From assembly GCA_015179125.1 (NCBI GenBank), contig WHVA01000065.1:62001-126000 (forward strand): a stretch of 64,000 bases of DNA, in the 5' to 3' direction. The stretch comes from Gautieria morchelliformis (lineage: Eukaryota; Basidiomycota; Agaricomycetes; Gomphales; Gomphaceae). Position 1 is the first letter of the stretch. Each line of letters starts with the position of its first letter. The notes beneath the pieces are model-generated. The model had not been told where the DNA came from, did not search any database, and saw nothing but the letters and a program-made list of their open reading frames with translations. The position numbers and the translations under genes were made by a program. Below, one piece after another: positions 12,352 through 63,924 of the stretch.

Positions 12352-12356
12352 CACGC

Positions 12357-13085
12357 TGTTACGACTGTTCATTTCTGACTTCCTACCTTCAGTTCCACAA
12401 CACATTCCACCCCCCCGATATTTCCGACATCCCGCCCTTGTTCATTTCCCTTGTTCTTTTGACTCTATTACTCGGACCCACTGGACCCACCTCACCGTTC
12501 ATCAAGACCATGTGTCCGGCCCTCCTTGTGTTTCGTTGCCAGATATGTTTTCCCGACCCCTTGTTCTTTGCCATTGTTCTACCTTACCCTGAACCCCCTT
12601 GTAGTCCCATTATTCCCAATTAGTTAGTTCCCACGCATTGTCTACTCGACTTCCGCTTTCCCCGGAATTTGCTTAGTACTACCCCATTACCTGTTGTCTC
12701 AGCTCTTTGTATAAAAGCCTGTCATGTATGTCTGTTATTCTGCAACCAGATAATCACCTTCGATACTTGATTTCCTTCGCTCCATCTCCTGTTCTTAGCA
12801 CAGCGAGTCTAGCAAGACCTCAGTCTCTCCGCCTTCCATCTTCTGCCTTCCGTCTTCTGCCTTCCGTCTTCTGCCTTCCGTCTTCCGCCTTCCGTCTTCT
12901 GCCTTCCGCCTTCCGCCTTCCGCCTCAGTTCCGACTCAAGTTCCGACCAACCTCTAGTTCAGTACTTTTCGACTTCCGACTCATTTCCAAAATACTTAGG
13001 ATGATAGTTCATTGGGGGCGCAACCTATAAGTTGAAGCCGCTGTCCTTTCCAGTTCCGGCTTAGTGGAAATCTCGATACGTAACA
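12357..13085 (+). repeat. 5' LTR of B1
   Basis: 729 bp, against 661 bp for the 3' LTR. The excess is an expanded pyrimidine tandem tract (units like CTTCTGCCTTCCG) at about 12826-12925. TATAAAA lies at 12710. The putative RNA start with AACCAGATAAT is at 12744-12754. The U5-like end contains GGGGGCGCAACC. Confidence 0.95.
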
Positions 13086-13087
13086 GT

Positions 13088-13098
13088 ATTATCTGATT
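13088..13098 (+). other. Primer-binding site, self-priming type
   Basis: ATTATCTGATT lies two bases inside the LTR end. Its complement AATCAGATAAT matches 10 of 11 bases at 12744-12754 in the LTR, about 34 nt after the TATA box, where transcription should start. In B2 the match is 13 of 13. No match to a tRNA 3' end is obvious. This is the arrangement known from Tf1 of fission yeast. Confidence 0.65.
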
Positions 13099-13118
13099 CC
13101 CACCCGATAACTATCACT

Positions 13119-14493
13119 ATGCCTCCTCGTACCACAGCTGCTTCAGCTCGAGCAGGAGCTGTCGAAGCTCTCTCTTATTTTGGCAGTCTTAGATCCGCAG
13201 CACCAAGGCACGCGGAACCCTCCGGCAGCTCTCGTGCTGACGATGAGCTCTCCGATGCTATTCCGCAGTGATTCGAAGAAGTTCCCGAGGCTAATCCCGA
13301 CGACAATCCATGACTATGACAGAAACTCGACGAGTAGCAGCGGCGAACAAACAGCAGCATCATTCTGACGCCCAGCTCCACCACCAGGACCACCTCCAGG
13401 CGGCCCTCATGGTGGCCCACCCGGCGGTCCCCCAGGCGGTCCTCCCGGCGGTCCTCCACCTCCAATTCCACCTCAGATTCCCGCCAACCCAGTTCCGCCC
13501 GCACCAGTTCCGGATATTGCACAAGCCATCGCCATGCTAGCCGGACAACTTCAGCGCCCGGCCCAAGCACCACCATGCCCCAAGACAAAGGTCCGCAAAC
13601 CAGATCAATTCGACGGTTCCGACCCCAAGAAGCTCCAGCCATTTCTGGTCCAGCTTCAACTCAACTTCTGTGATCGTCCTGACGCCTTTCCCGACGACTA
13701 ACGAAAGGTCAATTACGCCCTTTCCTATCTCTGAGGCACGGCTCTCGACTATTTTGAACCCGCCCTCATGGATCCGTTTGCTCTCGTGGACTGGTCCAAC
13801 GATTACCACAACTTTGTTTCCGAACTCCGCAGCAACTTCGGGCCATTTGACATGGAAGCCGATGCGGAAAATGAACTCGATAAGCTTCGTATGAAAGACA
13901 CTCATAAGATAGCTAAATATATCGTCACATTCCAGCAGCTCGCTCCTCGAGTCCAATGGGGAGAAGCCCCACTCTGACGCCAATTCTACATGGGCTTGCC
14001 ATCCCGGATCAAGGATGAAATTGCCCGCGTTGGAAAACCCGCCACCCTTACCGACCTTCGCAATTTAGCCCAATCCATCGATTCGTGCTACTGGGAAAGA
14101 CATTCCGAGATCGCTCGCGAAACTTCTGCCCAGAGCAAGAACGACAAGTCTTCCGACAAGAAGTCTGACAAAGACAAGAAGAAGACTAATTCCGGAAACA
14201 ACAACTCCAGAAACAACAACAACAACTCCACCCCTCGCAATAACCAGGCCTCTGGTTCCAACACCAACACCCGGAAGAGCACTCCGGACCTTTCTGACAA
14301 ACTTGGGAAGGACAGAAAACTAACCCCTGTAGAACACCAGCATCGCATGGACAACAACCTTTGCCTTTTCTGCAGCAAAGGCGGTCATGTCGCTCGCGAT
14401 TGCACCCGAGCTTCCGCTTCCGCTGCTAAGGCCAAGGGCCGTGCGGTGAAGACGGAAGAGAAATCCGAAGCGGCTCCCGCTACGGATGCATAA
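13119..14493 (+). pseudogene. gag of B1, broken
   Basis: Nucleocapsid/capsid polyprotein, homologous throughout to the intact 458-codon gag of B2. The start ATG is 34 nt after the LTR in both copies. Lesions relative to B2: TGA at 13269, one inserted base near 13311, TGA at 13366, TAA at 13699, TGA at 13732 and TGA at 13975, and the final A-run is interrupted (GCATAAAAATAG). Three TGAs replace CGA of B2. The C-terminal part (13990-14493) is open and keeps the zinc knuckle CLFCSKGGHVARDC. No full-length Gag can be made. Confidence 0.9.
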
Positions 14494-14503
14494 AAATAGT
14501 CAG

Positions 14504-14536
14504 CAGTCCTCCAGCCTCCGCATGAGCTGAGGGCTG
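14504..14536 (+). promoter_or_regulatory. Gag-pol junction hairpin (B1)
   Basis: CAGTCCTC at 14504-14511 pairs with GAGGGCTG at 14529-14536 (one G-U pair). The loop carries CATGA, whose TGA closes the pol frame. Pol is open from the next codon on. The same hairpin is in B2 and, with one compensatory pair change, at 7574-7604. Confidence 0.6.
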
Positions 14537-17500
14537 TGTTGACCCCATTCGTGCGACAAACGAGGTTAAACTCAATGCATCCGCTCTTTCGTCCTCCGAC
14601 TCCCTCTCTGTTCCGCTCACTTCCGACACAATTTCCACACCCCCGTTCACAGCATTGATCGACTCCGGTTTGACTCACTGTTTCCTCGATTCTGACTTTG
14701 TTTTGAAACATAAACTTCCGACCCGCAACATTCCGACAATTCCGCTCCGCCTTTTCGACGGGTCGTCTAACATGGCAATTTCCCAAGTCGTGGACCTGTC
14801 TATCCGTTTCGCTACTGGGGACAACCATGAAGTTATGTTTTACATTACTCCGCTAGATGCTAGCTGTTCCGTTGTACTAGGACACAATTGGCTCACCCGA
14901 TATAATCCGTCGATTAACTGGGCATTGGGTCAAATACAGTTCTGTACCCCGGATCAACTTCCGTCTATTCTGACTTCGTCCACAAAGAAGGCTCAGGCCT
15001 CTTCTGCAACTCCGCTGGTGGATTCAGTTCCACACTCCGGTCCCGCTTTAGCACCTCCGTCCCTTGAAGCTCCTCGAATTGCGCTCATTTCCGCCACCGC
15101 TTTCCGCGTATTGCAACGGCAAGAAGACACGACCGTTTTCCAGCTTCACCTTTCCGACTCGGCTTCAGTCAAGGCTCGTTCCGCCTCGACTTCTGCTCCG
15201 GTCAACATGAGCTCAGTTCCGGATGAATATCGTGACTTCCCGGACATGTTCAATAAGGCCAAAGCCGATAAACCTGCTGAACATCGACCTTACGATCTGA
15301 AGATAGATTTGGAAGAAGGAGCATCTCCGCCCCTTGGACTGATCTACTCTCTTTCGCAAAGTGAACTCCAAACTCTCCGAGAGTTTGTCGATGAACATCT
15401 CAACATGGGCTTTATCCGCCCTTCGCTGTCTCTGCACGGCGCTCCGGTCCTTTTCGTCAAGAAGAAGGACGGATCTCTCCGCCTCTGCGTCGATTTCCGT
15501 GGACTCAACGCCCTCACTAAGAAGGACAAATATCTGCTTCCGTGTATTTCCGACCTACTCGACACTCCCCGCAGGGTGAAGATCTACACCAAAATTGACC
15601 TCTGGCATGCTTATCACCTTGTCCGCATCCGGGAAGGTGACGAGTGGAAAACCACTTTCCGCACCTGCTACGGTGCTTTTGAGTGGGTCGTCATGCCTTT
15701 CGGTCTAACCAATGCTCCCGCCGCTTTTCAGCGATTCATGAACGACATATTTTCCGACCTTCTCGACGTATGCGTCCTCGTCTACATTGACGACATCCTC
15801 ATCTATTCCGACTCACCGGAAAAACATCGGGAACATGTCTGTGAAGTACTCCGCCGTCTCCGCAAACACCATCTCTACGCAAAAGCAGAGAAATGCGAAT
15901 GGCATCGTGACACGGTCGAATACCTCGGCTACATCCTCTCTCCAACAGGTCTTACCATGGCAGAGGACAAGGTCAAGGCAATTCAAGAATGGCCGGAACC
16001 CCGACGTGTTAAGGATGTACAGTCTTTCCTTGGCTTCGCCAACTTTTACCGGCGTTTCATTTACAATTTTTCTGACATTACTGTTCCGCTCATGCATCTC
16101 ACCAGGAAGGGTGCCCCATGGAATTTCACCCCGGAATGCTGTTCTGCATTTGAAGCCCTCAAATCGGCCTTCACTACGGCTCCTATACTCGGTTTCTGGA
16201 TTCCAGATGCCCAACTTGTACTCGAAACCGACGCTTCTGACTACGCGCTAGCCGCCATTCTTTCCATCATTTCCCCCGACGACGGAGAAATTCATCTGAT
16301 CGCCTTTCATTCCCGCACCTTTTCCGCCCCAGAACTCAACTACGACGTCCACGATAAGGAACTACTTGCGATTTTGGAAGCCTTCAAAATCTGGAGACAC
16401 TACCTCGAAGGTCCAACTTATCCGATCGACATTGTAACGGATCATAAGAACCTTGAGTATTTTGCAACTACTAAGATTTTGACTCGCCGTCAAGTCCGCT
16501 GGTCTGAATATCTCTCACAGTTCAACATGGTGATCCACTTCTGCCCCGGAAAGCTCAGAGCAAAACCCGATGCACTCACTAGACGTTGGGACGTCTACCC
16601 AAAAGAGGGAAGTAGCGACTATGCCAGTGTTAATCCGCACAACTTCCGCCCAGTATTCTCCACTGAGCAACTGGCATCGTCCCTGCGTGCCACAGCATTG
16701 CAGTTTCCACTACTCCGCACCTCAATTATTATGGACACCGAGTCTCTCCGTTCCACACTCCATTCCGCACCCCGTTCCGCACCCCGTTCCGCACCCCGTT
16801 CCGCACCCCGTTCCGCACCCCGTTCCGCACCCCGTTCCGCACCCCATTCCGCACCCCGTTCCGCACCCCGTTCCGCACCCCGTTCCGCACCCCGTTCCGC
16901 ACCCCGTTCCGCACTCCATTCCGACATCCGTTCCGCACTTCGTTCTGACCCCATCTCTGCAACCCACCTCGATGATCCAACCAGTCCTGGATGGTCCCTC
17001 GACTCCAACGGATTTCTCCGCTACAAGTCCTGGATCTACATTCCAGACACCAACAATCTACGACTTCGCATACTCCAGCAAAGCCACGATCACCTGCTCT
17101 CAGGGCACCAAGGCCAAAACAAGACCCTCGACATAATCCAACGTACTTACACTTTGCCACCTCTCCGCACGATGGTCCAAGACTATTGCAAGTCATGCAC
17201 CACCTGTATGCGCGCCAAGCCCCAACGTCACAAACCCTACGGGCTCCTAAAGCAACTTCCGATCCCAGAACAACCGTGGAATTCGATATCCATGGACTTC
17301 ATTGAGAAACTTCCTAAGTCATCTGGATATGATACCATTCTAGTTATTGTTGACCGCCTCACAAAGCAGTCGATCTTTATTCCAACTTATGACACCATCA
17401 CTTCCGCCCAGCTCGCACAGCTCTTTGTGCTCCACGTCTTTTCCAAGCACGGAATTCCTTCCCATGTCACTTCCGACCGTGGATCCGAATTCGTGTCATC

Positions 17501-18347
17501 CTTTTTCCGCACACTCGGCAAGGCTCTCGACATGAAGTTCCACTTCACTTCCGGTTATCACCCCGAAGGAGACAGACAGACGGAACGTACTAATCAGACC
17601 CTTGAGCAGTATCTCCGCGTCTATTGCAACTACCAACATAGCAATTGGTCCGACCTTCTTCCGCTCGCGGAATTTGCCTACAACAATGCGCTTTCTGCCA
17701 CCACCGGAATCTCACCCTTTTACGCCAACAAAGGCTACCACCCGAATCTCGCCATCCACCCTGAACGCGACCTCGCCTCTGCAAGAGCTCGAGATTTCGC
17801 TGTGGAACTTGACGACCTTCACCAACACCTCCGAGAGAACATCTCCGCTGCCCAAAAGAGATACCAAACTTCCGCCAATCGGAAACGACTTCCGCAACCG
17901 GCATTCGAGATAGGCGACAAAGTCTTTGTCAAAGCTGAAAACTTCCGCACCACTCGTCCCTCGAAGAAACTCTCTGAAAAATACCTTGGACCTTATGAGA
18001 TCATCGCTAAGGCCGGCAGTCGTTCTTTCACCCTCAGACTTCCTGACAATATGCGCGCAGTACACCTGGTATTCCATGTCTCCATGCTTGAGCCCGCAGT
18101 TCCGAATACAATTCCGAATCGAGAACAACCTCCGCCTCCACCAGTCATCATTGACGGAGAACCGGAATATGAGATCTTGGAAATTCTCAACTCAAAGCTC
18201 GACAGACGATACCGCTGCCAACTCCGGTACCTAGTCAAGTGGGCAGGCTATGAAAACACCGACAAAGAGACCTCATGGATTTCCGCCACGGAACTAGACC
18301 ACGCCTCTGACCTCGTCTCTGATTTCCACAAGTCTTATCCTGATTAG
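14526..18347 (+). CDS. Pol polyprotein of B1: PR-RT-RNaseH-IN-chromodomain
   Basis: Open from just after the TGA in the junction hairpin to TAG at 18345; it lies in the -1 frame relative to gag and has no obvious ATG start, so it is probably expressed by recoding. Counting from 14655: protease loop ALIDSGLTHCFL (residues 1-11), RT from about 260 with VYIDDILIYS at about 375, RNase H TDASDYA at about 524 and TDHKNLEYF at about 595. A low-complexity linker at 698-762 is made of four-residue units (SAPR). The integrase HHCC is at about 811-850; catalytic D881, D941 and E977 have 35 residues between the last two. A chromodomain lies at about 1170-1228 (EYEILEIL..YLVKWAGY..SWISATELD). Two conserved RT arginines are replaced (DLW in place of DLR, FRTC in place of FRTR, both possible C-to-T changes at CpG), so activity is doubtful despite the open frame. 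Confidence 0.93.
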   Translation, partial: AEGCVDPIRATNEVKLNASALSSSDSLSVPLTSDTISTPPFTALIDSGLTHCFLDSDFVLKHKLPTRNIPTIPLRLFDGSSNMAISQVVDLSIRFATGDNHEVMFYITPLDASCSVVLGHNWLTRYNPSINWALGQIQFCTPDQLPSILTSSTKKAQASSATPLVDSVPHSGPALAPPSLEAPRIALISATAFRVLQRQEDTTVFQLHLSDSASVKARSASTSAPVNMSSVPDEYRDFPDMFNKAKADKPAEHRPYDLKIDLEEGASPPLGLIYSLSQSELQTLREFVDEHLNMGFIRPSLSLHGAPVLFVKKKDGSLRLCVDFRGLNALTKKDKYLLPCISDLLDTPRRVKIYTKIDLWHAYHLVRIREGDEWKTTFRTCYGAFEWVVMPFGLTNAPAAFQRFMNDIFSDLLDVCVLVYIDDILIYSDSPEKHREHVCEVLRRLRKHHLYAKAEKCEWHRDTVEYLGYILSPTGLTMAEDKVKAIQEWPEPRRVKDVQSFLGFANFYRRFIYNFSDITVPLMHLTRKGAPWNFTPECCSAFEALKSAFTTAPILGFWIPDAQLVLETDASDYALAAILSIISPDDGEIHLIAFHSRTFSAPELNYDVHDKELLAILEAFKIWRHYLEGPTYPIDIVTDHKNLEYFATTKILTRRQVRWSEYLSQFNMVIHFCPGKLRAKPDALTRRWDVYPKEGSSDYASVNPHNFRPVFSTEQLASSLRATALQFPLLRTSIIMDTESLRSTLHSAPRSAPRSAPRSAPRSAPRSAPRSAPHSAPRSAPRSAPRSAPRSAPRSALHSDIRSALRSDPISATHLDDPTSPGWSLDSNGFLRYKSWIYIPDTNNLRLRILQQSHDHLLSGHQGQNKTLDIIQRTYTLPPLRTMVQDYCKSCTTCMRAKPQRHKPYGLLKQLPIPEQPWNSISMDFIEKLPKSSGYDTILVIVDRLTKQSIFIPTYDTITSAQLAQLFVLHVFSKHGIPSHVTSDRGSEFVSSFFRTLGKALDMKFHFTSGYHPEGDRQTERTNQTLEQYLRVYCNYQHSNWSDLLPLAEFAYNNALSATTGISPFYANKGYHPNLAIHPERDLASARARDFAVELDDLHQHLRENISAAQKRYQTSANRKRLPQPAFEIGDKVFVKAENFRTTRPSKKLSEKYLGPYEIIAKAGSRSFTLRLPDNMRAVHLVFHVSMLEPAVPNTIPNREQPPPPPVIIDGEPEYEILEILNSKLDRRYRCQLRYLVKWAGYENTDKETSWISATELDHASDLVSDFHKSYPD
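16748..16940 (+). repeat. 12-bp tandem array inside pol
   Basis: About 16 units of the type CCGTTCCGCACC, twelve of them near-perfect and encoding Ser-Ala-Pro-Arg/His. The array is absent from the same place in B2 (60800-60835), which goes directly from SLHSDIRSALRS. It lies between RNase H and integrase and keeps the pol frame. The unit has no stop in any of the six frames, which explains several long overlapping frames here. Confidence 0.95.
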
Positions 18348-18502
18348 CCTGGCCCCATTTCTGCGCCCTAGTCATTTCCGACCTCAATTCCAATACCCAG
18401 TGTTTTCTTACAGTTCTCAAGTTACATGTCAAATCCGATTAATTCCCGATTACGCTATTTTCCGACACTTCAAGAGATTAAATTACAAGTCACTTCGACA
18501 CC

Positions 18503-19759
18503 CTACTCCTCCCTCATCGTTTCCGCCTCACCCTCGTTCTCCACTTCCGCACCCTCTTCCGCATTCCCTATCTCCACACTGACCAACTCGGTCCCCACCC
18601 TCGTATCCGCCACCTGACTCGGACCCGCTTCCGCCCCATTCTCCTCCTGCATCCGCAAGTCCATTCTTTCCCAGACCATGTCATTCCGCCACCGGTACTC
18701 CCGCTTGAACTGCTCCAAGACCGCCGACATAACGGTCATCTGGTTCTGGAAGGACAGCAACTGCTGTTCCTGAACCGCCGCCATCTCCACGAGGATGTTC
18801 CGGACCCCGCGTTGGGTTTTCCGGATCCCCCTCAATGACTCCACAATATCAAGCAGTGGGGACACCATGGAGAAGCGGTTGAGCACCACTGTCTCCGAGG
18901 TTCCGGTCACCGGAAATCCTTCCGCCTTCTTTCCGCTCGGTCCCGGTTTCGACTTGGGGGTTTCAGGCCCCTCGGTCTCAACCCTGCGTCTTTTCCGCTC
19001 CACCCTCGCGGCACACCCATCCACCACGCAACGTCACTTCTTGTCCCGGCACCGTTCGCAGGCCGTCTCCCGCGGATTTTCCGACCACACACACTTCAGG
19101 CCCTTGACCTCGCACGCGTCGCAAGGAGCCTTCTCCTCCTCGCCGTCCCTGGTTTTCCTTTTTCAGGTCATGGGATTCTCCGGCCCCAGCTCTCGCAACT
19201 CCAGTATCCAGGCCATTTTGTCCTTCCAAGCCTGTTGGAACTCGTCCGCCCTCCGTTTCCGTTCCGCAACAATATTCGGCATGGGAGCAACATCTTTTTG
19301 CTTCCCCTTGCCCTCTGGGGGCGGCATGCTTTCCGCAGAGCTTTCCGCTTCCGACTCCCCCTCGGAATCTACGACCCTCTGGCAGTTTTGTTTCCGTGAA
19401 CTCCGAAAAAACACCACAGGACGTTTCCGACTCACCTGTTTGTTCCCCGCCTTTTCCGCCGCGGCCTTGTCTTCCGCAGCTTTTTTGGCCACGTCCCGTT
19501 TCCACTGCTCCTCGCGGAGGCGCAACTCTTCCTCGCGGCGTTTACGGTCTTTTTCTTCCCTCTCCTTCTGCTCCTGTTCCCGACGCTCCTGTTCCCGATG
19601 CTCCTGTTCCTTGTGCTCCTCCTCCAGACACTCCCTCTCTTTCCGTGCGGCTTCCTCGGCCTCGCGCTTTTCGGCCAGCTCCTTCTGCGCAAGCATATCA
19701 GCAAAGTGCTGCTTCATCTCGGCACTGGTCATTTTGGAGAAATCGATTGGAGTGCTCAT
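18503..19759 (-). pseudogene. Antisense gene of B1: coiled coil plus Zn2Cys6-like cluster
   Basis: Minus-strand frame of about 418 codons between pol and the 3' LTR, ATG at 19759-19757, stop at 18505-18503. N-terminus MSTPIDFSKMTSAEMKQHF, then roughly 100 residues of E/K/R-rich heptad-like coiled coil (EKREAEEAARKERE and so on). A basic/acidic linker follows (DSEGESEAESSAES), then the cysteine cluster CDACEVKGLKC...CERCRDKK.RC (19121-19028), fitting CX2CX6CX10CX2CX6C, and a C-terminal helical region. Two in-frame TGAs (19163-19165 and 19034-19036) break it; the second lies inside the cluster. B2 has no stop at those two positions. Function is unknown; DNA binding is inferred only from cysteine spacing. 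It is not a shadow of a plus-strand gene, because the plus strand has no pol homology here. Confidence 0.8.
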
Positions 19760-19880
19760 GATGGATCGAAGCGAAGACACATTTGTTTCCCACCTATCTT
19801 TCGAACTCCGACACGTTTGTTCACAGGTCATGTGATTCCGACTTGTGGTCTCGCGGGGCTCAACCTTAGAAGGGAGATAC

Positions 19881-20541
19881 TGTTACGACTGTTCATTTCC
19901 GACTTCCGACCTTCAGTTCCGCAACACATTCCGCCCCTCCGATATTTCCGACATCCCGCCCCTTGTTCATTTCCCTTGTTCTTTCGACTCTATTACTCGG
20001 ACCCACCGGACCCACCTCACCATTCATCAAGACCATATGTCCGGCCCTCCTTGTGTTTCGTTGCCAGATATGTTTCCCCAACCCCTTGTTCTTTGCCATT
20101 GTTCTACCTTACCCTGAACCCCCCTTGTAGTCCCATTATTCCCAATTAGTTAGTTCCCACGCATTGTCTACTCGACTTCCGCTTCCCCCAGAATTTGCTT
20201 AGTACTACCCCATTACCTGTTGTCTCAGCTCTTTGTATAAAAGCCTGTCATGTATGTCTGTTATTCTGCAACCAGATAATCACCTTCGATACTTGGTTTC
20301 CTTCGCTCCATCTCCTGTTCTTAGCACAGCGAGTCTAGCAAGACCTCAGTCTCTCCACCTTCTGTCTTCCACCTTCCGCCTCAGTTCCGACTCAAGTTCC
20401 GACCAACCTCTAGTTCAGTACTTTCCGACTTCCGACTCATTTCCAAAATACTTAGGACGATAGTTCATTGGGGGCGCAACCTATAAGTTGAAGCCGCTGT
20501 CCTTTCCAGTTCCGGCTTAGCGGAAATCTCAATACGTAACA
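19881..20541 (+). repeat. 3' LTR of B1
   Basis: 661 bp, near-identical in sequence to the 5' LTR apart from the shorter pyrimidine tract. Preceded by AGAAGGGAGATAC (polypurine tract) and followed by the target duplication CACGC. Confidence 0.95.
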
Positions 20542-20546
20542 CACGC

Positions 20547-46406: not shown

Positions 46407-47065
46407 TGTTATGACCGTGCATTTCCTATTTCCGACCTTCAGTTCCGCACACATTCCGCCCCTCCGATGTTTCCGACATTCCACCCCTTGTTCTAGTCCC
46501 TTGTTCTTTCAACTCTATTACTCGGACCCACCTGACCCGCTTTATCGTTCATCATGATCATATATCCGGTCCACCTTGTAGTTCGTTGTCAGATATGTTT
46601 TCCGACCCCTTGTTCTTTTGCCATTGTTTTACCTTACCCTGAACCCCCCTTGTAGTCCCATTGTTCCCAATTAGTTAGTTCCCACGTATGTCTACCCAAC
46701 TTCCGCTCCCCCCGGAATTTGCTTAGTACTATCTCATTACATGTTGTCTCAGCTCTTTGTATAAAAGCCTCTCATGTATGTCTGTCATTCTGAAATCAGA
46801 TAATCACCTTTGATACTTGATTTCCTTTGCTCCATCTCCTGTTCTCAGCACAGCGAGTCTAGCAAGACCTCCATCTCTCCACCTCCCATCTTCCACCTTC
46901 CGCCTCAGTTCCGACTCAAGTTCCGACTAACTCTTAGTTCAAGACTTTCTGACTTCCGAACCATTTCCGAAATACTTAGGACGATAGTTCATTGGGGGCG
47001 CAACGTATAAGTTGAAGCCGCTGTCCTTTCCAGTTCTGACTTAGCGGAAATCTCGATACGTAACA
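46407..47065 (+). repeat. 5' LTR of B2
   Basis: 659 bp, TGTTATGACCG...GATACGTAACA. TATAAAA at 46760. The predicted transcript start region GAAATCAGATAAT (46792-46804) lies 32 nt downstream and is perfectly complementary to the PBS. Confidence 0.93.
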
Positions 47066-47067
47066 GT

Positions 47068-47080
47068 ATTATCTGATTTC
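47068..47080 (+). other. Self-priming primer-binding site of B2
   Basis: ATTATCTGATTTC is the exact reverse complement of 46792-46804 in the LTR, two bases away from the LTR end. This is the geometry expected if the 5' end of the element's own RNA folds back and primes minus-strand DNA, as shown for Tf1. Confidence 0.75.
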
Positions 47081-47098
47081 CACCCGATAACTATCACT

Positions 47099-48475
47099 AT
47101 GCCTCCTCGTACCACAGCTACTTCAGCTCGCACAGGAGCTGTCCAAGCTCTCTCTTATTTTGGCAACCTTAGATCCGCAGCACCAAGACATGTGGAACCC
47201 TCCAGCAGCTCTCGTGCCGACAATGAGCTTTCCGACGCTCTTCCGCAACGCTTTGAAGAAGTTCCCGATGATAATCCCGATGACAATCCCGACTACGACG
47301 GAAATTCGTTGAGCAGCAGTGGCGAACATACAGTAGCATCATTTCGATGCCCAGCACCACCTCCACCACCTCCACCAGGACCACCTCCTGGCGGCCCTCA
47401 TGGCGGCCCCCCAGGCTGTCCTCCACCTCCTATTCCCGCCAACCCAGTTCCACCCGCGCCAGTTACGGATCTTGCACAAGCTATCACCATGCTGGCCGGC
47501 CAACTACAGCGCCCAGCCCAAGCTCCACGCCCCAAGACAGAGGTCTGTGAACCGGATCAATTCAACAGTTCCGACCCCAAGAAGCTCCAGCATTTTTTGG
47601 TCCAGCTTCAACTCAACTTCCGTGATCATCCCGATGCCTTTCCTGACGACGAACGAAAGGTCAATTACTCCCTTTCCTACCTCCGAGGCACAGCTCTCGA
47701 CTATTTTGAACCCGCCCTCATGGATCTGTTCACTCTCATCGACTGGGCTGACGATTATCACAATTTCGTTTCCGAACTCCGCAGCAACTTCGGACCATTT
47801 GATATGGAAGCTGATGTGGAAAATGAACTCGATAAGCTTCGTATGAAAGACACTCATAAAATAGCTGAATACATCGTCACTTTCCAGCAGCTCGCTCCTC
47901 AAGTCCAATGGGGAGAAGCCTCACTCCGACACCAGTTCTACATGGGCCTGTCATCCCGGATCAAGGATGAAATTGCCCACGTTGGAAAACCCGCCACCCT
48001 CACCGACCTCCGCAACCTAGCCCAATCCATTGATTCACGCTACTGGGAAAGACATTCCGAGATTGCTAATGAAACCTCCGCCCAGAGCAAGAACGACAAG
48101 TCTTCCAACAAGAAGTCTGATAAAGACAAGAAGAAGACCAATTCCGGAAACAACAACAACAACAACAGTTCCGGCTCCAACTCTGGCAACCGGAACAACA
48201 CTTCCACACCACGCAACAACCAGGCCTCTGGTTCCAACACCAATGCCCAGAAAAGCACTCCGGACCTTTCTGACAAACTTGGGAAGGACGGAAAACTAAC
48301 CCCTGCAGAACGCCAGCGTCACATGGACAACAATCTTTGCCTCTTCTGTGGCAAAGGCGGTCACGTCGCTCGTGATTGCACCCAAGCCTCCGCTTCCGCT
48401 GCTAAGGCCAAGGGCCATGCAGCGAAGACGGAAGAGAAATCCCAAGCGACTCCCGCTACGGATGCAAAAAAATAG
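47099..48475 (+). CDS. Gag of B2, intact 458 codons
   Basis: Structural protein of the virus-like particle. The ATG is 34 nt after the LTR. Domains in order: an acidic Ser-rich N-terminus; a Pro/Gly-rich stretch at about residues 84-125; the retrotransposon Gag core at about 155-330 (FRDHPDAFPDDERKVNYSLS, LRGTALDYFEP, FVSELRSNFGPF, IAEYIVTFQQLA, SRYWERHSE); a low-complexity N/S/K region encoded by CAACAACAA runs; and a CX2CX4HX4C zinc knuckle CLFCGKGGHVARDC at about 413-426. It ends at TAG right after seven A residues. It is the only full-length gag in the window and could in principle package other Gy-B RNAs. Confidence 0.92.
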   Translation: MPPRTTATSARTGAVQALSYFGNLRSAAPRHVEPSSSSRADNELSDALPQRFEEVPDDNPDDNPDYDGNSLSSSGEHTVASFRCPAPPPPPPPGPPPGGPHGGPPGCPPPPIPANPVPPAPVTDLAQAITMLAGQLQRPAQAPRPKTEVCEPDQFNSSDPKKLQHFLVQLQLNFRDHPDAFPDDERKVNYSLSYLRGTALDYFEPALMDLFTLIDWADDYHNFVSELRSNFGPFDMEADVENELDKLRMKDTHKIAEYIVTFQQLAPQVQWGEASLRHQFYMGLSSRIKDEIAHVGKPATLTDLRNLAQSIDSRYWERHSEIANETSAQSKNDKSSNKKSDKDKKKTNSGNNNNNNSSGSNSGNRNNTSTPRNNQASGSNTNAQKSTPDLSDKLGKDGKLTPAERQRHMDNNLCLFCGKGGHVARDCTQASASAAKAKGHAAKTEEKSQATPATDAKK

Positions 48476-48512
48476 TCAGCAGTCCTCCAGCCTCCGCATG
48501 AGCTGAGGGCTG
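48466..48512 (+). promoter_or_regulatory. Gag-pol recoding signal candidate (B2)
   Basis: A seven-A run (48466-48472) in the phase A_AAA_AAA precedes TAG. After a 7-nt spacer comes a hairpin with stem CAGTCCTC/GAGGGCTG (48480-48487 with 48505-48512). Pol is in the -1 frame, but that frame meets TGA at 48499-48501 in the loop and is open only from 48502. A plain -1 shift therefore gives only a short extension; readthrough, bypassing or reinitiation must be considered. Confidence 0.6.
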
Positions 48513-48904
48513 TGTTGACCCCATTCATGTGACAAATGAGGTTAAACTCAACGCATCCGCTCTTTCATCCTCCGACTCCCTCTCAGTTCTGCTCACTTCT
48601 GACACAATTTCCGCACCCCCATTTACTGCATTGATCGACTCTGGTTCGACTCATTGTTTCCTCAATTCCGACTTTGTTTTGAAGCATAAGCTTCCAACCC
48701 GCAACATTCTGACAATTCCGCTCCGCCTTTTTGACGGGTCATCCAACACGGCAATCTCCCAAGTCATGGACCTGTCTATCCATTTCGCTACTGGGGACAA
48801 CCACGAAGTTACGTTTTACGTTACTCCGCTAGATGCTAGCTGTTCCGTTGTACTAGGACACAATTGGCTCACCCGATATAATCCATCGATTAACTGGGCA
48901 TTGG
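48502..48904 (+). pseudogene. B2 pol, part 1: protease
   Basis: Starts after the junction hairpin and includes FTALIDSGSTHCFLNSDFVL, the retropepsin active site with intact D-S-G. It continues DASCSVVLGHNWLTRYNPSI and is cut at 48905 by LTR-F inside the ATTGG target. In this part the frame has no stop, and the D-S-G-S is better preserved than in B1 (D-S-G-L). Confidence 0.9.
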
Positions 48905-49402
48905 TGTAGAGGACAGGAATTATAGGCAGTAGGTATGGACTTGTTGCTCAAAAGAATAGACTAGAAAACAATTCACTCTCTCAGTGAATTTAGTTGTCAC
49001 TGTAAATATATTATACACTACCTAGAAAACAATTCACTACAGAGGATTTCTAGGTTAATAAATCGAAAGAACACTAGACTAATTTACTTGCCTCTCTCAG
49101 TGAATTTAGTTGTCACTGAGAGAGGGGGAAATCTGTCTCACTGTGCATGTACTACTACCCGGCCCTTTAGCGCCCAAGAGCTCGCGCGTCGAAGTCATTT
49201 CAGACTCCGCTGGGTGCAGCCACTTGTGAAAATAGAAATAACAAGATGAAATGGAGAGGTAAGGAGTGACTGGAAAATTTCGAAAATAATCAGAGAAATG
49301 GGTGCATGGTACAAGAACAATGTGAGAAGAGATTGAAACACCATACAGCAAATCGAATATATTATGCTTGATTTTGGTGCAGGAGCATAAATGCACCCAA
49401 CA
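48905..49402 (+). repeat. Solo LTR-F, copy 2
   Basis: 498 bp, TGTAGAGGAC...GCACCCAACA, with target duplication ATTGG (48900-48904 and 49403-49407). Carries the same hairpin motif (CCTCTCTCAGTGA..TCACTGAGAGAGG) and its partial duplicate as copy 1. Confidence 0.9.
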
Positions 49403-49804
49403 ATTGGGTCAGATACAGTTCCGTACCCCAGATCAACTTCCGTCTATTCCGATGTCGTCTGCAAAGATGGCTCAGGCCTCTTCTGCAACTCCGCTCGTGG
49501 ACTCAGTTGCGCACTCTGGTCCTGCTTTAGCACCTCCGACCCTCGAAGCTCCTCAAATTGTGCTCGTCTCTGCCACCGCTTTCCGCGTATTGCAACGGCA
49601 AGAAGATATGACCATTTTCCAGCTTCACCTTTCCGATTTGGCTTCAGTCAAGGCGTGTTCTGCCTTGACTTCCGCTCCGGTCGACATGAGCTCAGTTCTG
49701 GAAGAATATCATGACTTCCCGGATGTGTTCAACAAGGCCAAAGCCGATAAACCCGCTGAACATCGACCTTATGATCTGAAGATAGATTTGGAAGAAGGAG
49801 CATC
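49403..49804 (+). pseudogene. B2 pol, part 2: linker before RT
   Basis: Continues the pol frame after LTR-F: QIQFRTPDQLPSI, TAFRVLQRQEDMTIFQLHLS and DFPDVFNKAKADKPAEHRPY, the region between protease and RT. It is cut at 49805 by LTR-G within the GCATC target. Confidence 0.9.
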
Positions 49805-50367: not shown

Positions 50368-50465
50368 GCATCTCCGCCCCTTGGATCAATCTACTCCCTT
50401 TCGCAAAGTGAACTCCAGACTCTCCGAGAGTTCGTCAATGAACACCTCAACATGGGCTTTATCTG
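50368..50465 (+). pseudogene. B2 pol, part 3: start of RT
   Basis: Encodes the frame matching PPLGLIYSLSQSELQTLREF of B1 up to the GFI block, then is cut by element C within the ATCTG target. Confidence 0.88.
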
Positions 50466-50679
50466 TGTAAATAACCTAGATACCATACATATATACTAGT
50501 TATTACATAATCCCAGTGGGCCCCTTAGGGACCCACTGTATAGTTTATGCGTGGGAACCGGTCAGTGGTTCCCATCGCATCTTACCCTTACACTGTCACT
50601 ACGTAGCATCAGAATACCACATATTGGTCAAGTTCTGTCGTACTCTTGTGACTTAAGGCTTAAGATAAACATCTTTACA
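50466..50679 (+). repeat. 5' LTR of C
   Basis: Contains two adjacent hairpins: CAGTGGGCCCC..AGGGACCCACTG at about 50511-50538 and GGGAACC..GGTTCCC at about 50552-50574. The inner flank starts CCTTTTTGAACTATCC; I cannot assign its primer. Confidence 0.93.
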
Positions 50680-50895
50680 CCTTTTTGAACTATCCTGTGG
50701 TTGATTTCCACGCAGCCAACCGATTGTGGATTTGAAGCAATCTTGAAAAAGATCGCTGCGTCGACGACTAAACATCATTGAGATCCTCCAGTAGACATTC
50801 TACTGTCGACTGCGAGCATGATGATTCCACACAGTCGAAGACAGACATGAGCGACGAGCTCGCAGTCCACACCACTGGCGCAGCCCAGCGACACG

Positions 50896-59241: not shown

Positions 59242-59275
59242 TTGGTCCCCTATAGTTGTCTATAGAGGGGGAGGG

Positions 59276-59489
59276 TGTAAATAACCTAGATACCATACAT
59301 GTATACTAGTTATTACATAATCCCAGTGGTCCCCTTAGGGGCCCACTGTATAGTTTATGCATGGGAACTGGTCAGTGGTTCCCATCGCATCTTACCCTTA
59401 CACTGTCACTACGTAGCATCAGAATACCACACATTGGTCAAGTTCTGTCATGCTCTTGTGGCTTAAGGCTTAAGATATACATCTTTACA
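59276..59489 (+). repeat. 3' LTR of C
   Basis: 214 bp, preceded by AGAGGGGGAGGG and followed by ATCTG. Near-identical to the 5' LTR. Confidence 0.95.
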
Positions 59490-62383: not shown

Positions 62384-63924
62384 CTACTCCTCCCTCATCG
62401 TTTCCGCCTTGCCCTCATTCACCGCTTCCGACTCTTCTTCCGCATGTCCCACCTCAACAGTCACCAACTCTGTTTCCACCCTTTCCCTCGTTTCCACCCT
62501 TTCCCTCGTTTCCACCCTTTCCCTCATTTCCACCCTTTCCCTCGTTTCCGCCCTCGTGCTCGAACCCGCTTCCGCCCCATTTCCCTGCTCCTGCAGTCGT
62601 GCGCTCATTTGATCCCAGACTACGTCGTTCTGCCATCACATTTCCCGGGTCAACTGTTCCCGGACTGTGGACATCACAGTCATCTGGTTCTGAATTGACA
62701 GAACCTGATGCGGCTGAATTTCCGCCATGTCCAGCATGATATCCAGGATCTTGCCTTGTGTTTTCCGCATAGCCCTCAATGACCCGGCAATGTCGGTAAG
62801 GGGATACGACATGGTAAAGCAGTTTAGGACCGCTGCCTCCGAGTTTCCAGTTACCGGAAACGCTTCTGCCGACTTTTCTCCGCTCAGTCCTGGTTTCGAC
62901 TTAGGGGTTTCAGGCCCCTCGGTCTCAACCTTTTGCCTTTTCCGTTCCACCCTCGCAGCACATCCGTCCATGACGCAGCACCTCTTCTTGTCCCAGCACT
63001 GCTCGCAGGATGTTTCCCGTGGATTTTTGGACCACATGCAATCCAGCCCTTTTGACTGGCATGGGTCGCACGGGGCCTTCTCTTCTTTGTCGTCCCTTGT
63101 TTTCCACTTTTTTGTAGTGGGATTCTCTGGTCCCAACTCCCGCAACTCCAGCATCCGGGTGTAAATAACCTGTGTATCTACATGTACAATAGTTATTACA
63201 TAATCCCAGTGGGCCCCTTAGGGACCCACTGTATAGTTTATGCGTGGGAACCGGCCAGCGGTCCCCATCGCATCTTACTCTTACCTGTCACTACGTAGCA
63301 TTCAGAATACCACTCATTGGTCAAGTTCTGTAGTGCCCTTGTGATACAAGGTTCTAAGATCGACATCCTTTACACCGGGCCAGCTTGTTCTTCCTGGCCT
63401 TTTGGAACTCATCTGCCCTCCGTTTTCGTTCTGCAACAACGTTCAGTGCAGGGGCAACTTCTTTTTGTTTCCCCTTGCCCTCTGGGGACAGCATACTTTC
63501 CACCGTGCTCTCCGAGTCTGATTTGGACTCGGATTCAACGATTTTCTAGAAGGCTTTTCCGTTAATTCCTGGAACCCTCTGCATAATGTTTCCGACTCAC
63601 CCGTTGCCTTGCTACCTTCTCCTCCGCGGCCTTGTCCTCCGCAGCTTTTTTGGCCATGTCCCGTTTCCACTTCTCCTCGCGGAGATGCACCTCCTCCTCG
63701 CGGCGTTCATGGTCTTTCTTCTCCTTCTCTTTCGGTTCCTGGTCCCAGTGTTCTTTCTCCTTGCACTCCTTCACCTTGCGCTCCTCCTCCAGGTGCTCTT
63801 TCTCTTTCCGCGCAGCTTCCTCGGCCGCTTGTTTTTCCGCCAGCTCCTTCTGCGCAAGCATGTTGTCGAAATGTTTTTTCATCTCAGAGCTGGACATTTT
63901 GGAGAAGTTGAGTTGGGAGCTCAT
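62384..63924 (-). pseudogene. Antisense gene of B2: coiled coil plus Zn2Cys6-like cluster
   Basis: Second copy of the gene at 18503-19759. ATG at 63924: MSSQLNFSKMSSSEMKKHFD, then a coiled coil of E/K repeats to about 63610, a frameshift near 63570 and a Ser/Glu linker. Solo LTR insertion (63160-63374) interrupts within the sequence before MLELRELGPENP. The cysteine cluster CDPCQSKGLDC...CEQCWDKKRCC (63070-62975) fits CX2CX6CX10CX2CX6C with no stop inside. A C-terminal helical region follows (NQMTVMSTVREQLTREM, then TGA at about 62633) and the end has six-residue repeats (RERVET) from an 18-bp tandem array. Both copies keep the same architecture and frame despite independent lesions. Confidence 0.82.
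63160..63374 (+). repeat. Solo LTR of Gy-C
   Basis: 215 bp, TGTAAATAACC...ATCCTTTACA, with target duplication CCGGG (63155-63159 and 63375-63379). Clearly related to the LTRs of C, with several differences, so it comes from a separate insertion. It disrupts the antisense gene of B2. Confidence 0.93.

Follow-up and report, generated by a model that had tools for sequence, protein, structure and literature searches.

Antisense genes are an established feature of several LTR elements. According to passages in PMC7264820, Grande, RIRE2, Retand and PvRetro13 carry antisense genes downstream of pol and ahead of the 3′ LTR, and GENE23 of Grande is nuclear and transcribed from a promoter of its own; the antisense 3′-LTR promoter of HTLV is mentioned there as well. 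A passage in PMC11963269 gives TRP28 as encoded by 97% of recent Retand clusters, with DNA binding as a prediction. In fungi, the Gypsy element Boty of Botrytis cinerea carries an extra antisense gene, brtn, between pol and the 3′ LTR (passages in PMC8365987 and PMC7264820, citing Zhao et al. 2011). The word ‘antisense’ is absent from the main text of the 2010 chromovirus survey (PMC2864245). The suggestion in the initial annotation of the DNA studied here that no family of this kind had been described is too strong given the antisense genes of plant Gypsy elements and of the fungal element Boty (as described in passages of PMC7264820, PMC11963269 and PMC8365987). Among the open-licence PMC papers listed by literature searches, none has a title or abstract opening that describes an antisense gene of zinc-cluster type in an LTR element of a fungus. 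Antisense accessory genes are therefore already known, and what is new here is a cysteine-cluster version, very probably spliced, in chromoviruses.

The window, i.e. the whole stretch of 64,000 nucleotides that was analysed, contains two copies of the host element. The features of the first copy, and those of the antisense gene in both copies, are as follows.

12357–20541, plus strand: host element, a chromodomain Ty3/Gypsy element (chromovirus), from its LTRs and the Pfam domains of pol
12352–12356 and 20542–20546: 5-bp target duplication CACGC, flanking the host element
12357–13085, plus strand: 5′ LTR, TGTTACGAC...GTAACA, 729 bp (sequence, BLAST of the LTR pair)
13990–14493, plus strand: part of gag, including a zinc knuckle of CCHC type (Pfam zf-CCHC_5, 22.8 bits, under the cut-off of 27)
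14526–18347, plus strand: pol, with protease, reverse transcriptase, RNase H, integrase, SH3_Tf2-1 and chromodomain (Pfam)
19436–19759, minus strand: antisense gene, exon 1 of copy 1, 108 codons, MSTPIDFSKM..., a long charged helix (sequence and constraint)
19379–19435, minus strand: putative intron of copy 1, 57 nt, GTGAGT...CAG (alignment of 37 copies)
18503–19378, minus strand: exon 2 of copy 1, with in-frame stops at 19163–19165 and 19034–19036
19028–19123, minus strand: six-cysteine cluster CX2CX6CX10CX2CX6C of copy 1 (sequence, Pfam)
19881–20541, plus strand: 3′ LTR, 661 bp, its edge 121 nt upstream of the antisense ATG (BLAST of the LTR pair)
63601–63924, minus strand: antisense gene, exon 1 of copy 2
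63546–63600, minus strand: putative intron of copy 2, 55 nt, GTGAGT...TCTAG
62384–63545, minus strand: exon 2 of copy 2, with a repeat of ~217 bp at about 63157–63376 and the cysteine cluster intact

The LTR pair is 95.6% and 96.2% identical in two long aligned pieces (BLAST), and the chromodomain at the C-terminus of pol scores 26.5 bits against Pfam Chromo (cut-off 25.1), which identifies the element as a chromovirus. An expanded CTTCCG(C/T)CTTC array is present in the 5′ LTR (12357–13085) and missing from the 3′ LTR (19881–20541), and tandem repeats of ~60 bp coding for RSAP units lie in pol between RNase H and integrase (window 16748–16966). The second copy is split by another Gypsy element. 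Three related repeats of ~217 bp, possibly a MITE, are found in the window at about 50465–50681, 59273–59489 and 63157–63376, the last of them inserted in the antisense gene of copy 2.

In both copies a minus-strand frame lies between pol and the 3′ LTR, as had been annotated. In copy 1 it runs from an ATG at 19757–19759 to a TAG at 18503–18505, close to the pol stop at 18347, and in copy 2 from 63924 to 62384; all these ends agree with the initial annotation. The single frame of about 418 codons proposed there, however, includes an intron (19435–19379, and 63600–63546 in copy 2). Of the copy-specific lesions reported, the two stops of copy 1 are real, one of them falling between the fifth and sixth cysteine, as is the inserted repeat of copy 2, but the interruption at 63546 would be the 3′ splice site.

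The genome (122 Mb, 1113 contigs) was searched for further copies. At the DNA level the best 40 of 514 candidates gave 40 loci (L009–L048), the window's own included. At 38 loci the 3′ LTR was no more than 100 nt from the 5′ end of the segment used for the search, a segment that borders on the LTR; the pol C-terminus was found on the opposite strand at 39, and both were present at 37. A search with the antisense protein returned at least 150 matches (the best 150 of 636 candidates) at 72–99% identity. Moreover, at least 33 of the best 150 reverse transcriptase matches (4604 candidates) had an antisense match on the opposite strand 1.5–6 kb downstream, 31 of these at least 33 pairs being spaced by 2.9–3.1 kb; three control arrangements gave 0/150 each, among the matches listed. 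Both the 37 of 40 loci and the pairing with reverse transcriptase thus put the gene where an antisense accessory ORF (aORF-3R) lies, after pol and before the 3′ LTR. At L089:432–2000 the antisense frame is fused with Helitron Rep/helicase-like sequence into one long open frame of 1298 codons (by eye).

Many copies share an apparent frameshift after about 108 codons. Alignment of the DNA of 37 copies, the shortened or interrupted loci L046–L048 being left out, revealed an intron-like stretch that begins with GTGAGT in 35, ends with AG in 36 and contains a CTNAY branch-like motif in 32. The search pattern recognised this stretch in 51 of 54 sequences; it measures 48–58 nt in 49 of them and 80–82 nt in the other two. 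Division by three leaves remainders of 0, 1 and 2 in 25, 7 and 19 of the 51, and multiples of three are therefore not enforced. The introns of L043 and L044 contain an internal duplication of ~30 nt which repeats the 5′ splice site. Many of these seeming frameshifts are explained by an intron in the antisense gene, and such an intron implies that this strand is transcribed and its RNA spliced. Copies with a long frame rose from 5 of 36 when unspliced (at least 380 aa) to 16 of 36 when spliced (at least 360 aa). In a sliding control, in which the removed stretch was shifted, 16 long frames were obtained at −30 to +30 nt, 12–14 at −150 to −60 or +60, 7 at +90 and 4–6 further out. By this control the rescue of the frame does not prove where exactly the intron lies, as neighbouring shifts also give 12–16 long frames (14–16 from −30 to +60 nt); it is the splice consensus that fixes the site. 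In the window's family no TATA-like box was seen in the 300 nt preceding the antisense ATG (the 37 copies, out of 40, in which that ATG was located). The genomic RNA is the other strand, on which the intron cannot be spliced, and hence an intron antisense to the genomic RNA can persist in an element that is copied through RNA. Since it can persist, conserved splice sites form a built-in record of the use of the antisense strand for protein. These sites, which the initial annotation did not include, are the best, if indirect, indication of expression, and the antisense gene is a selected accessory gene that is very probably spliced.

Selection on the frame was assessed from the same 37 copies. 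Singleton sites were spread evenly over the codon positions of the antisense frame (72/61/69), and sites whose second allele occurs in at least 5 of the 37 copies favoured third positions (53/44/117). Even singletons, together with a third-position bias of shared alleles, point to neutral decay after insertion and to constraint in the replicating lineages. For the shared alleles pN/pS was 0.33 in the antisense frame, compared with 0.45 in the sense frame that shares its wobble positions and 1.2–1.9 in the other frames. Pol as a control gave 9/6/76 and a pN/pS of 0.08, the constraint on the antisense gene being the weaker (0.33 against 0.08), and the LTR gave 29/24/30 with 0.88–1.30 across six frames; both controls came out as they should. 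In 28 spliced copies pairwise dN/dS had a median of 0.172 (dS > 0.1 in 370 of 378 pairs). The 14 later loci of this set were picked from the protein-search matches, mostly for long open frames; within the set the cysteine region reached 0.116 and the next best frame 0.326. A value of 0.190 was obtained in 16 copies picked for an open unspliced frame, with the intron read as codons. In-register stops in the 37 copies numbered 14 in the antisense frame and 69–428 in the other five. A dN/dS near 1 had been named in advance as the result that would speak against the gene; the 0.17 found indicates purifying selection, and the value of 0.172 amounts to the protein-level conservation that is characteristic of an aORF-3R. 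A chance ORF is ruled out by codon-position bias, pN/pS, dN/dS, stop counts and a test of cysteine placement (below). Judged from the DNA of its copies, this is a retrotransposon-borne antisense protein gene preserved by purifying selection: chromoviruses here carry, between pol and the 3′ LTR, an antisense frame that is interrupted by a conserved intron-like stretch, and its predicted protein sequence has been kept while the elements multiplied.

Fungal Zn2Cys6 clusters follow the spacing rule CX2CX6CX5-12CX2CX6-8C. The antisense protein has CX2CX6CX10CX2CX6C, intact in 26 of the 28 spliced copies and within the rule, as the initial annotation had found in both window copies. Randomly placed cysteines satisfied the rule 0 times in 200,000 for each of four copies. 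The likeness to Zn2Cys6 proteins that had been drawn from this pattern holds for the spacing and for recurrent sub-threshold matches to Pfam Zn_clus (PF00172), but not for the order of the two halves or the strength of the matches. Six of 16 whole antisense proteins match Zn_clus at E ≤ 0.1, and the cut-off of 21 bits was never reached, the best score (20.7 bits) coming from a short natural piece. The first triad matches profile positions 7–37 or 14–37 at 14.6–20.7 bits, and the second matches positions 1–13 at 8.1–10.5 bits (exact pieces of L022, L050 and L051); in its L042/L049 form the second triad gave no Zn_clus match in Pfam, and the L051 piece scored higher with zf-TRM13_CCCH (16.1 bits) than with Zn_clus (9.6 bits). 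The first triad therefore resembles C4–C6 and the second C1–C3, a swapped order, since in Zn2Cys6 clusters the basic CX2C(R/K-rich)C half precedes the other; two host zinc clusters of the same genome (L002, L004) have the usual one (by eye). With swapped halves and no match over the cut-off, membership of the Zn2Cys6 family is not established, and the motif is zinc-cluster-like with its halves apparently exchanged. The genome holds 17 Zn_clus matches over the cut-off (Pfam, E ≤ 0.001), which together with the types of element present mark it as probably fungal, and by eye none of these places coincides with any of the at least 150 antisense matches listed; antisense genes of this type are thus easily overlooked.

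A coiled coil had also been annotated. Residues about 30–95 are up to 80–89% charged and most windows are without heptad periodicity, the exceptions lying at residues 31–65 (z of 2.6 in L049 and 1.5 in L060). An N-terminal coiled coil is thus poorly backed, whereas a C-terminal helix at residues about 281–355 is a modestly better candidate by its a/d periodicity (z of 0.2 to 3.1, three proteins scored). The 16 antisense proteins gave no match to Transposase_28 at E ≤ 0.1, and in this differ from the TRP28 type of Retand. No homologue was found at E ≤ 0.001 in a large protein collection with two queries, the first being a 193-aa piece searched in a length window that excluded full-length relatives, and no solved structure matched at E ≤ 1.

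A sister element (L083) also has a chromodomain (Chromo, 36.4 bits against a cut-off of 25.1) and is therefore a chromovirus; its pol C-terminus is 73% identical to that of the window element over 112 residues. BLAST detected in L083 no homologue of the window antisense gene over the cluster. It carries an antisense gene of its own.

L083:470–1640, minus strand: sister antisense gene, two exons and a putative intron of 46 nt

Exon 2 has 295 codons with CX2CX6C-X15-CX2CX6C, and exon 1, of 69 codons, lies upstream and ends at GTGAGT. Exon 2 gave 138 matches (from the best 133 of 566 candidates, a few copies counting twice) and exon 1 at least 150. The gap between the exons in 66 examined pairs was 46 nt (48 pairs), 47 nt (7), 48 nt (10) or 51 nt (1), and GTGAGT is found in 4 of 5 aligned copies, with GCGAGT in L088. 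ATAAAAG occurs 44–45 nt upstream of the antisense ATG in all five (L083, L085–L088), and is a candidate antisense TATA box of this second lineage. In the sister protein the triads stand X15 apart, which exceeds the X5-12 of the rule, and the whole protein matched no Pfam family. A weak Zn_clus match (15.3 bits) places the second triad where it usually lies, and the swapped order is therefore not common to both families. These three results speak against a common fold. When the two families were compared by hhalign only the cysteine cluster aligned (E 0.071, probability 0.8%), so that their homology is not proven. The sister family has 27 CCTCG in 2 kb against 6.7 expected, an expectation that ignores codons. 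In a third chromovirus lineage, whose pol is 50% identical, no six-cysteine antisense frame was found among frames of at least 70 aa in ~1 kb beyond pol (L084); several short antisense frames of 71–94 aa follow pol there (L084:1072–1995, minus strand).

The window element (12357–20541) is rich in TTCCG, with 109 on the sense strand against 16.4 expected over 8.2 kb, and has 20 CGGAA against 7.5 (order-1 Markov). With the LTRs and the tandem repeat removed, 68 TTCCG remain against 11.9 expected. TTCCG is the top 5-mer of both LTRs, and the enrichment spans the whole element, coding sequence included: pol minus the tandem repeat gave 21 against 7.9 and 12 against 3.7 in codon shuffles (0/500 each), the gag piece 5 against 2.0 (6/500), and in each of five copies tested CGGAA was commoner in the antisense coding sequence than in any of 300 codon shuffles. 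In the surrounding DNA, beyond the two copies, TTCCG occurs 0–3 times per kb, and no enrichment was seen in the third lineage (L067, L068). Window positions 46407–49800 are likewise saturated with sense-strand TTCCG. A binding motif specific to the LTR was rejected, as the enrichment is element-wide and LTR CpGs within TTCCG/CGGAA are not better kept than others (0.910 against 0.916, p = 0.66, 35 LTRs). Any link between this enrichment and the antisense protein is speculation. One such reading, which we consider decidedly improbable, is that the protein is a self-recognition factor whose swapped-order zinc cluster reads CGG-type sites saturating its own element; if so, the sites would label the elements as self, so that they are activated, targeted or spared from silencing.

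The account we favour, and consider somewhat probable as a whole, is that a spliced antisense gene supplies a nuclear accessory regulator that acts on element DNA or chromatin. The antisense mRNA would start in or near the 3′ LTR and then be spliced, giving a predicted protein of about 375–407 residues whose N-terminus is helical and charged, and which also has basic patches, the six-cysteine zinc-cluster-like motif and an acidic tail. Its C-terminal helix could serve in dimerisation and the basic patches in nuclear entry, and the protein would bind nucleic acid. Bound to element DNA or chromatin, the protein may tune LTR transcription, silencing or integration, in the manner of HBZ of HTLV or GENE23 of Grande and not as their relative. 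A role as nuclear regulator appears the likeliest for this protein.

One rival reading of the locus concerns the coding strand. If pol-sense were the coding strand, the plus-strand ORF at 18795–19835 (346 aa) would encode an env-like protein with the minus frame as its shadow. The ORF is open, with a low pN/pS (0.45) and dN/dS (0.33), values that arise because the two frames have their third positions in common. However, dN/dS is lower in the antisense frame (0.17 against 0.33), in-register stops in the 37 copies number 14 there and 133 in the sense frame, and the splice consensus and cysteine pattern were seen on the minus strand; a sense-strand env-like gene is ruled out on these grounds, and we hold it to be next to impossible. 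It is unlikely, though a good deal less so, that the protein is structural or RNA-binding, nucleocapsid-like or a particle protein, and no DNA-binding regulator. Cysteine clusters and basic patches bind RNA too, the charged helix could be structural, and a motif that favours the genomic RNA strand recurs all over the element. Against this, the sole profile that recurs for the motif is that of a fungal DNA-binding zinc cluster, below its cut-off, and a knuckle of CCHC type, likewise under its cut-off, is already supplied by gag.

The gene could instead have been taken up from the host, as a passenger or in the host's service, and play no part in the element's cycle. This would account for an intron that resembles that of a host gene, and Zn2Cys6 genes are common in fungi. 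The constraint nevertheless holds across copies of 71–90% protein identity, a sister chromovirus has a gene of similar design, and 37 of 40 copies lie between pol and the LTR, which makes such a passenger quite unlikely, although the search for a host parent was a weak one, with at least 150 matches listed and the surroundings checked for the element in a minority of them. Lastly, the antisense RNA itself could matter, as a dsRNA trigger or a decoy, with the protein secondary. Passages in PMC7264820 discuss antisense transcripts that lead to dsRNA and siRNA regulation, but here the amino acids are under selection and the splice sites preserved, and we regard this as very unlikely.

Compared with known systems, the putative nuclear regulator shares with fungal Zn2Cys6 regulators (PF00172, Gal4-type), which are usually DNA-binding, six cysteines at a permitted spacing, basic residues, and then a linker and a helix; it differs from them in scoring below the Pfam cut-off, in its swapped triads and in a cluster placed mid-protein. 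HBZ of HTLV-1 is a bZIP protein with a basic region and a dimerising helix, made from a spliced antisense mRNA that starts on the 3′ LTR side. The present gene would resemble it in such an mRNA and in a putative basic region and dimerising helix, and differs in having a cysteine cluster in place of a bZIP; no homology is claimed. The plant aORF-3R genes (Grande GENE23, RIRE2 and Retand TRP28) agree with it in place, orientation, conservation and proposed nuclear or DNA-binding role, as far as passages in PMC7264820 and PMC11963269 describe them. Retand, by these descriptions, belongs to a non-chromovirus lineage and has the TRP28 domain, where the window family has a cysteine cluster instead. 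Since one lineage of chromoviruses has a cysteine-cluster protein under constraint and a second has a similar gene, the role of antisense genes in LTR elements becomes directly testable. Boty is a further such system: its brtn, compared here by its published description only, likewise lies antisense in a fungal Gypsy element, after pol and before the 3′ LTR.
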